Shown: positions 36,663-37,596 of the stretch, one piece after another
How positions within the stretch are numbered: position 1 is the stretch's first letter
How the letters are laid out: each line of letters starts with the position of its first letter
Virus record (IMG/VR): IMGVR_UViG_3300036761_001186
Span: 1-37,596 of that record
DNA length: 37,596 bases
Strand: one strand, 5' to 3'
Source: a virus
The notes under the pieces: model-generated
Told to the model about the DNA's origin: nothing
The model's input: the letters and a program-made list of their open reading frames with translations, nothing else
The model's database searches: none
Made by a program: the position numbers and the translations under genes

Positions 36663-36929
36663 ATGTATATAAGTCCCAAAAACAAGATCGAAGATCTGCG
36701 TAACCATTTCTTCGCCACGCTCGAGGATCTCCGCGATGCCGACAAGCCGATGGAGATCGAGCGCGCCCAAGCCATCGCCGACGTTGCCCAGGTGATCGTC
36801 AATTCGGCCAAGGTCGAGAACGACCACATCAAACTAACGGGCTCGGCTGGCTCCGGCTTCATCGAGAAGATCGATAGCCTACCTAAGCCTGGCCAACCGC
36901 GGCTGGTCAAGGGAATGGCTCAGGCGTGA
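36663..36929 (+). CDS. Conserved phage early protein, 88 aa
   Basis: ATG 36663 with GTAGGGAG upstream. KIEDLRNHFFATLEDLRDAD, KPMEIERAQAIADVAQVIVN and SAKVENDHIKLTG form a pattern I recall from small proteins next to phage replication genes (LR..LF..LE.L.D...PM.IERA.AI..VAQ.II..AK.E). They have no assigned activity. It precedes and overlaps the DUF1376 gene (GTGA at 36926). Confidence 0.65.
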   Translation: MYISPKNKIEDLRNHFFATLEDLRDADKPMEIERAQAIADVAQVIVNSAKVENDHIKLTGSAGSGFIEKIDSLPKPGQPRLVKGMAQA

Positions 36930-37596
36930 ACCATGGCTCGCGCTTGCAAAGCACCGTCGAACCTTCCTGGCGCATGACCAGCGATGCTATTCCCCCACTC
37001 GTTCCCGCGAACGTCGACCTCCGCGGTTACGAATTCATGCCCATCTATGGGCACTACCTCTTCGGGTCGGACTTCAATTCGCGCGTCAGCGATACCGCGT
37101 GGCGCGCTGCCCTCACTCTCTGGTGGGCGGCATGGAATCAGGTGCCGGCCGCGTCCTTGCCGAACGACGACATCGCTTTGACCAGACTCGCTGATCTCGG
37201 GCGTGATGTGCGCGGCTTCCGCAAGATCAAGGGGGAGGCGCTTCACGGGTTCGTGATCTGCAGCGACGGCAGGCTGTATCACAAGGCGTTGTCGAAATGG
37301 GCGCTCGAAGCGTGGGCTAGGAGGGTCCAAGACAGGGAGAGGAAGGCCAATTGGCGTGCTTCGAAAACGCGCAATGTCCCGGGGACACGACAGGGACAAG
37401 CCATGGGACAAAGACGGGACAAGCCATGGGACAACAACGGGACAGAGACGGGACAAGCCATGGGACAACAACGGGACAGAGACGGGACAAGCCATGGGAC
37501 AACAACGGGACAGAGACGGGACAAGCCATGGGACAGAACGTCTTTGTCCCGTCTGAAGGGAAGGGAAGTGACAGTGAAGGGAAGGGAAGTGACAGT
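36926..37596 (+). CDS. DUF1376 replication-type protein, 3' partial, with iteron-like array inside
   Basis: The frame opens with GTG 36926 (overlapping the previous stop) or ATG 36974 and is still open at the window edge. NVDLRGYEFMPIYGHYLFGS, SRVSDTAWRAALTLWWAAWN, QVPAASLPNDDIALTRLADL and GFVICSDGRLYHKALSKWAL match DUF1376, a domain found at the start of phage replication or helicase-loader-like proteins. After residue about 150 the frame runs through a GGGACA repeat array, giving Gln/Gly/Asp/Arg-rich low-complexity protein. The array unit is 34 bp, not a multiple of three, so it is read in three phases. The C-terminus lies outside the window. Confidence 0.75.
   Translation, partial: MNHGSRLQSTVEPSWRMTSDAIPPLVPANVDLRGYEFMPIYGHYLFGSDFNSRVSDTAWRAALTLWWAAWNQVPAASLPNDDIALTRLADLGRDVRGFRKIKGEALHGFVICSDGRLYHKALSKWALEAWARRVQDRERKANWRASKTRNVPGTRQGQAMGQRRDKPWDNNGTETGQAMGQQRDRDGTSHGTTTGQRRDKPWDRTSLSRLKGREVTVKGREVT
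37375..37550 (+). repeat. Iteron-like GGGACA array (candidate replication origin)
   Basis: Fourteen direct copies of GGGACA start at 37382, 37393, 37405, 37416, 37428, 37439, 37450, 37462, 37473, 37484, 37496, 37507, 37518 and 37530, spaced 11 or 12 bp. Three exact 34-bp units make up 37416-37517. Inverted copies (TGTCCC) lie at both edges, 37375-37380 and 37545-37550. One-turn spacing inside a replication gene resembles the iterons within lambda gene O. Confidence 0.6.
37555..37596 (+). repeat. 21-bp tandem repeat, two copies, reaching the window end
   Basis: GAAGGGAAGGGAAGTGACAG plus T is repeated exactly at 37555-37575 and 37576-37596. The second copy ends on the last base, so more copies may follow. 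It is purine-rich, in frame within the DUF1376 gene, next to the iteron-like array. Confidence 0.7.

Follow-up and report, generated by a model that had tools for sequence, protein, structure and literature searches.

A helically phased half-site array inside a DUF1376-type phage replication gene as a probable replication origin

Origins of replication that lie within the gene of their own initiator are already known from lambda O and from the rep gene of pSK41. In lambda-type origins, represented by ori-lambda in gene O and by Stx phages, initiator-binding repeats and an A+T-rich tract occupy the middle of the gene, and the origin adjoins loader or helicase genes, according to the available sections of two accounts (PMC7466680; PMC5043065). 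For the RepA_N plasmid pSK41, the accessible text places ori centrally in rep and describes its binding by the N-terminal domain of the initiator, the encoded linker being dispensable (PMC5703833). Plasmid iteron origins (P1, RK2, R6K and others) carry helically phased initiator sites beside an A+T-rich stretch, and their iterons are mostly direct repeats that bind monomeric initiators (PMC5043065, available sections).

The window analyzed here is a whole IMG/VR record of 37,596 bp, and its gene content, including tape measure, integrase and exonuclease VIII, is that of a temperate tailed phage. The function of the DUF1376 protein family is unknown; E. coli K-12 has a single member, ydaU. At the end of the window, the linker of a gene with a DUF1376-type domain contains a dense array of short half-sites. 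This array is probably the iteron part of a phage origin situated, as in lambda, inside the gene of its own initiator, whose protein product would bind it; we infer by analogy this binding, the opening of the strands, the loading of the helicase and origin activity itself. In the literature searched, the scope of which excluded subscription papers and preprints, no DUF1376 case of an origin inside an initiator gene was found. In the available parts of those sources DUF1376 appears as a domain or family label with no origin attached, none of them mentions it together with an origin of replication, and among the papers listed for ydaU or ydaV and replication none was relevant.

The array and the gene that contains it

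The features of the window are listed below.

36926–37596, + strand: replication initiator gene (PHROG 22470; weak DUF1376/PF07120), its 3′ end cut by the contig end
36995–37381, + strand: DUF1376-type domain (from alignment); the model predicts a winged-helix-like fold and a long helix at the C terminus
37328–37360, + strand: basic helix segment, domain residues 112–122, the best predictor of iteron motif class in the family
37375–37380, − strand: inverted half-site TGTCCC, left edge
37382–37535, + strand: array of 14 GGGACA half-sites at 11–12 bp spacing
37382, 37393, 37405, 37416, 37428, 37439, 37450, + strand: starts of GGGACA copies 1–7
37462, 37473, 37484, 37496, 37507, 37518, 37530, + strand: starts of GGGACA copies 8–14
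37416–37517, + strand: three exact 34-bp units with three half-sites each, in three codon phases
37545–37550, − strand: inverted half-site TGTCCC, right edge
37554–37595, + strand: two 21-bp purine-rich repeats, where relatives have a purine tract; the record ends here

The gene has a GTG start at 36926 that overlaps the stop codon of the ORF before it, and an alternative start is the ATG at 36974. That small upstream ORF (36663–36929) matches phrog_2044, "RNA polymerase beta subunit" (E 8.6e-16), a label that looks doubtful for a protein of 88 aa. The N-terminal domain of the window protein matches the PHROG 22470 "replication protein" profile with an E value of 3.7e-36, and the match to DUF1376 (PF07120) is weak at 20.8 bits (E 5e-4), below the Pfam gathering cut-off of 30.1. 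In alignment A2, of which the window is part, every one of the 64 members matches PHROG 22470 and, at E ≤ 0.01, DUF1376; the same Pfam scan found Phage_186_Fil in 9 of the 64 and the lambda O family in none. A high-confidence model of the domain (pLDDT 94.6) predicts a winged-helix-like fold ending in a 30-residue helix. Its closest fold matches, which are weak, are RepA_N plasmid initiator domains (4pta, 5kbj, 4pql and 4pt7; best Foldseek E 0.043, best Z 5.2 with an rmsd of 4.1 over 86 residues), and a sequence search of solved structures gave nothing meaningful (best E 0.48).

Within the coding sequence of this gene, GGGACA occurs 14 times at successive spacings of 11, 12, 11, 12, 11, 11, 12, 11, 11, 12, 11, 11 and 12 bp. 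This count of positions confirms the initial annotation, which had described the copies and their spacing as well as the inverted copies at both edges. It had also reported three exact 34-bp units that shift phase with each copy and contain no stop in any frame. Indeed, the units at 37416, 37450 and 37484 begin in codon phases 1, 2 and 0, respectively, counted from the ORF start at 36926, and translation in three frames is free of stops. The further claim that gain or loss of a copy would alter the downstream frame holds for a single copy, since 34 leaves a remainder of 1 on division by 3, and fails for three copies (102 bp). The spaced pair GGGACANNNNNGGGACA (GGGACA-N5-GGGACA) is present 8 times in the window, always inside the array, and is absent from 100 dinucleotide shuffles. 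The repeat statistic of the gene was 290, against a mean of 21.5 (sd 9.4, max 59) when its synonymous codons were shuffled 300 times; the DNA is far more repetitive than the protein sequence requires.

The contig stops 46 bp past the right edge of the array, inside the gene and in a second repeat, of 2 × 21 bp. The 3′ part of the gene is therefore missing from the record, and an A+T-rich stretch and hairpin, if any, fall beyond the window, which stops at 37596. The exact number of copies could be an assembly estimate, because the array is about as long as one short read. That the copy number is in part an assembly effect, the element being real but shorter or longer than written, is unlikely, though it deserves more weight than any other alternative considered below: the exact units extend over roughly one short read and another tandem repeat terminates the contig, but comparable arrays are found in numerous independent records, including those of phage isolates and named bacterial genomes.

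In a CRISPR array, the repeats are equal and alternate with unique spacers some 30 bp long. Such an array is ruled out here by the 6-bp motif, its 11–12 bp steps and spacers that are themselves repeated. Arrays of the present kind are easily mistaken for CRISPRs or for protein repeats; in Vibrio phage 1.183.O, repeats of the DUF1376 gene (L315:1861–1890) bear the annotation of a CRISPR spacer in the public entry, a label that is probably a misreading of origin repeats.

Spacing and downstream layout in relatives

The relatives sampled were the best 80 of 198 and, with 73 new ones, the best 80 of at least 576, together with all of a further 15 and with 9 of 33 phage records. The sample consists of 177 loci and the window, and 133 genes (window included) were left once those at least 90% identical had been removed. 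Spaced GGGACA triplets are frequent in IMG/VR, occurring in at least 120 stretches (L005–L084 and further ones), among which those also found as DUF1376 relatives were examined.

The half-site motif varies by lineage, with TGTCC/GGACA, TGTCAC, GAAACG, CGTAACG, TTCCGCGGAA, CGATCGC and AAGGATCC classes. The spacing was analyzed through the lags between repeated 6-mers in 132 genes, with the window, the GGGACA hexamer and pure-purine words left out. Lag 11 was found in 65 genes against 17.4 in the null, lags 22 and 23 in 48 and 50 genes (null 12.4 and 15.5), lag 34 in 43 (null 13.0) and lag 45 in 44 (null 26.7). The step of about 11.3 bp is family-wide and recurs in the separate YdaU branch described below. 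It amounts to one helical turn or slightly more and breaks the codon frame. The arrangement of the sites on one face of the helix, proposed in the initial annotation, leads one to expect such a step, and it is observed both across the family, with the window excluded, and in the YdaU branch.

The common layout in relatives is a phased array followed by purine-rich tandem repeats, a local rise in A+T and, in some of them, a hairpin. A threshold on the purine tract kept 114 of the 133 genes, and the hairpin tests were performed on 113, the window being dropped. The median tract score was 25.2 on the coding (top) strand and 9.0 on the other. In the 114 genes that have the tract, A+T was 0.50–0.51 around its end, the mean over the gene being 0.37. 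Hairpins with a stem of at least 6 and a loop of 3–6 were present in 54 of the 113 genes, against 18.9 (sd 4.0, max 29) in shuffled sequences and 9 of 111 control segments. With a stem of at least 7 and a loop of 4, 28 genes had a hairpin after the tract (null 2.8, max 8; none in the control segment); these hairpins have 24 distinct stems, and the loop is TNNC in 22 of the 28. A C-tract motif occupies the hairpin position in 17 of 113 genes and in no control. The self-match of the purine tract was on average highest at lag 6 (0.58 vs 0.48 in the null). A strict hexamer was considered for the tract and dropped, the best lag being mixed (10 in 24, 6 in 23, 2 in 19 and 5 in 18 of 109 genes).

Genes for a helicase loader or a DnaB-like helicase adjoin the gene in relatives, where they are the next genes in phages. 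A further record is the Acinetobacter plasmid pACI-6db8, 41 kb and circular, which has phage genes and an integrase and is typed as a plasmid; the DUF1376 gene and its ATP-binding neighbor are the only replication-like pair in its incomplete gene table.

The same half-sites might instead form an operator, by which the encoded protein or another regulator would tune or repress the replication operon, with the origin elsewhere. Phased half-sites with inverted copies suit a repressor as well, and origin activity at the array is argued from analogy. Cumulative GC skew, which the initial annotation had named as a check on the origin, leaves no mark at the array: in three circular relatives its minimum lies 23.0, 16.5 and 2.8 kb away and lends the origin no support. 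We think that skew in the circular relatives is dominated by the strand of transcription. Against an operator, the array sits deep inside the gene, the purine tract, A+T rise and hairpin follow it in many relatives in the order expected of an origin, and replicative loader or helicase genes come next. An operator is for these reasons quite improbable, and an origin inside the gene is the preferred reading.

Repetition of the DNA and recognition of the motif

In 92 of the 133 genes the repetition of the DNA exceeded that of all 100 synonymous-codon shuffles, and in the other 41 at least one shuffle reached the observed value. The best repetitive stretch starts at a median of 45 nt downstream of the DUF1376 domain. 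Only 5 of 118 neighboring control ORFs surpassed all of 60 shuffles, and observed repetition relative to the null had a median ratio of 2.97 for the DUF1376 genes but 1.00 for the control ORFs. The tandem GGGA(C/G)AGGGA, which joins GGGACA or GGGAGA copies, was present on the coding strand of 64 of the 133 genes and on the other strand of none; it occupied codon phases 0, 1 and 2 in 20, 8 and 44 genes, respectively. Among 61 genes with at least three TGTCCC/GGGACA, 38 had same-strand copies in more than one phase. A DNA word that occurs in several codon phases means that the encoded peptide varies while the word stays constant.

In two Paraburkholderia species, whose loci L227 and L228 are about 94% identical over 2.6 kb, the array extends beyond the gene. 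The DUF1376 ORF of L227 stops early, at 2989, and that of L228 is also short. TGTCC/TGACA half-sites run on to about 3187 (L227) and 3165 (L228), through DNA with stops in all frames.

L227, 3013–3231: non-coding phased half-site array
L228, 3013–3209: non-coding phased half-site array

The non-coding half-sites are separated by steps of, for example, 11, 22, 33 and 34 bp, and a purine tract then follows. L228 lacks 22 bp of array that is present in L227, equivalent to two turns. At another locus, L240 (2501–2941), a short DUF1376 ORF ends past its repeats and purine-rich non-coding DNA comes next; the ORF downstream of these repeats is, in our impression, helicase-like in appearance.

These observations support the suggestion of the initial annotation that it is the DNA, rather than the peptide, that is under selection: relatives keep the pattern of DNA repeats while codon phase and motif vary, the shuffles are exceeded far more often in these genes than in control ORFs, and in L227 and L228 the array continues into non-coding DNA. 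Both the anatomy of the array and selection at the level of the DNA are plain from the data. It is accordingly very improbable that the array is a low-complexity coding repeat grown by slippage in a disordered linker, with no function as DNA. Any reading frame is tolerable in a linker, slippage typically leaves exact tandem copies, and the shuffles are not clearly beaten in 41 of the 133 genes. However, slippage conflicts with the shuffle tests and their control ORFs, with copies that are inverted as well as direct, with 11-bp steps that are no multiple of 3 and recur across lineages with unrelated motifs, with persistence outside the ORF and with a tandem found in one orientation only.

The part of the protein that tracks the motif was sought with classes set by hand after inspection, and so not blind, and then counted by rule; 105 of the 133 genes were assigned. 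With the linker taken from 3 or 8 codons past the domain, so that overlap with helix codons is avoided, 104 or 96 genes were usable. Motif class follows the tree of the domain, with 27 changes against 55.2 in shuffled assignments (0 of 200 shuffles as low). Nearest-neighbor prediction from residues 112–122 was correct for 72 of 104 genes (neighbors below 70% identity, linker from 3 codons), compared with 46 of 104 for the whole domain and 22–33 of 104 for segments outside the long helix. Restricted to neighbors below 50% identity, residues 112–122 predicted 47 of 104 and other segments 13–23. An 11-residue segment of the basic helix thus predicts motif class, as set non-blind, far better than the remainder of the domain.

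A pairwise test, which is weak, counted pairs in the same class. When N-terminal domains were at least 60% identical, it found 303 of 806 pairs with unlike C termini and 29 of 41 with alike ones. At 50%–60% identity the counts were 408 of 2108 (unlike) and 4 of 41 (alike), and below 50% they were 481 of 1930 (unlike) and 7 of 24 (alike). Pairs with similar domains and unlike C termini thus share a class only weakly, as set against the dissimilar pairs (481 of 1930), and this counts against the origin reading. The tree and the helix segment are more telling than this comparison of the two termini. The location of motif information in the basic end of the helix argues that the encoded protein itself reads the half-sites. 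It also makes scarcely credible a structure-forming element (G-quadruplex, R-loop or RNA structure) serving transcription or packaging in place of protein-bound iterons, which the G-runs and the one-strand purine bias downstream of the array might suggest; moreover, TGTCAC, GAAACG, TTCCGCGGAA and CGTAACG arrays keep the spacing with no G-runs.

For an origin bound by its own gene product, the following sequence of events can be envisaged. The DUF1376-type protein would bind GGGACA/TGTCCC half-sites, one per helical turn and on one face of the helix, probably as dimers and with its long C-terminal helix making contact through the basic end. The resulting nucleoprotein complex would strain and open the adjacent purine-rich or A+T-rich stretch, where helicase and loader would be brought in. 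Each step is drawn from lambda (PMC7466680; PMC5043065) and pSK41 (PMC5703833), as far as the available sections describe them.

It may be, and we propose this tentatively, that DUF1376 proteins are a large undescribed class of phage initiators built on an exchangeable cassette. A helix and its own sites, within a few hundred bp, would allow one recombination event to change origin specificity; about 11 residues of the basic helix would set the iteron, the one-turn spacing would stay fixed, and the TNNC hairpin with its 7-bp stem, past the opened region, would serve as a site of loading or priming on single-stranded DNA. If the origin does lie inside the gene, there is a simple reason for this placement: recombination of modules would not separate the DNA-binding part from its sites. 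DUF1376 would then denote a class of origin-carrying phage initiators, and the many natural pairs of helix and iteron would be a ready data set for a protein–DNA recognition code. The shared layout makes a large uncharacterized family approachable by experiment.

The YdaU branch and known systems

The YdaU branch was represented by 14 hand-picked genes outside the main set, namely Rac YdaU, 12 genes found with it and one plasmid gene. In 9 of them no shuffle reached the observed repetition; in the remaining 5, it was reached by 9, 17, 2, 18 and 36 of 100 shuffles. Of the 14, 8 showed lag 11, against 1.65 in the null, and 7 showed lag 22, against 1.45. The tandem element differs in this branch, being by eye AACCAT-, GATACA- or CCCTAA-like. 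In E. coli, ydaU of the Rac prophage has TGTTCAAACA-type repeats after its DUF1376 domain, at steps of 33, 12, 11 and 13 bp, with ydaV adjacent. The C-terminal part of YdaU matches phage "replication protein O" annotations, with 47% identity in Gifsy-1. Because this O match stands beside a DUF1376 domain, YdaU looks, from its sequence, like an O protein in which the DNA-binding half has been exchanged.

The Rac prophage is said, in the available part of one source, to have an active origin, oriJ (PMC3945230). In the literature searched, as far as its text was available, no statement was found on where oriJ lies with respect to ydaU. In E. coli K-12, ydaU (L302:9120–9977) has phased repeats, A+T-rich purine DNA and a C-run and is a candidate site for oriJ. 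Analogous to the window, the Rac region has a DUF1376 gene with phased repeats past the domain; it differs from the window in its motif and in the O-like C terminus.

What seems to be new, relative to the systems already described, is the family-wide layout, the rule of one half-site per turn, the hairpin and the way in which the motif goes with a short helix segment. As in lambda-type origins, the window gene has repeats that would be initiator sites inside an initiator gene, with binding by the initiator presumed by analogy. Unlike lambda, the protein has a DUF1376 domain and the half-sites follow one another at steps of about 11.3 bp, and relatives have a purine tandem tract, a hairpin with a 7-bp stem and 4-nt loop, and a widely varying motif. 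The RepA_N origin of pSK41 likewise lies inside the rep gene, and RepA_N domains give the best, albeit weak, fold matches; no sequence relationship was found. RepA_N belongs to staphylococcal plasmids, whereas the DUF1376 set is from phages and prophages mostly of Proteobacteria. In contrast to the mostly direct repeats of plasmid iteron origins, the present array combines direct and inverted half-sites, at one-turn steps and inside coding sequence.
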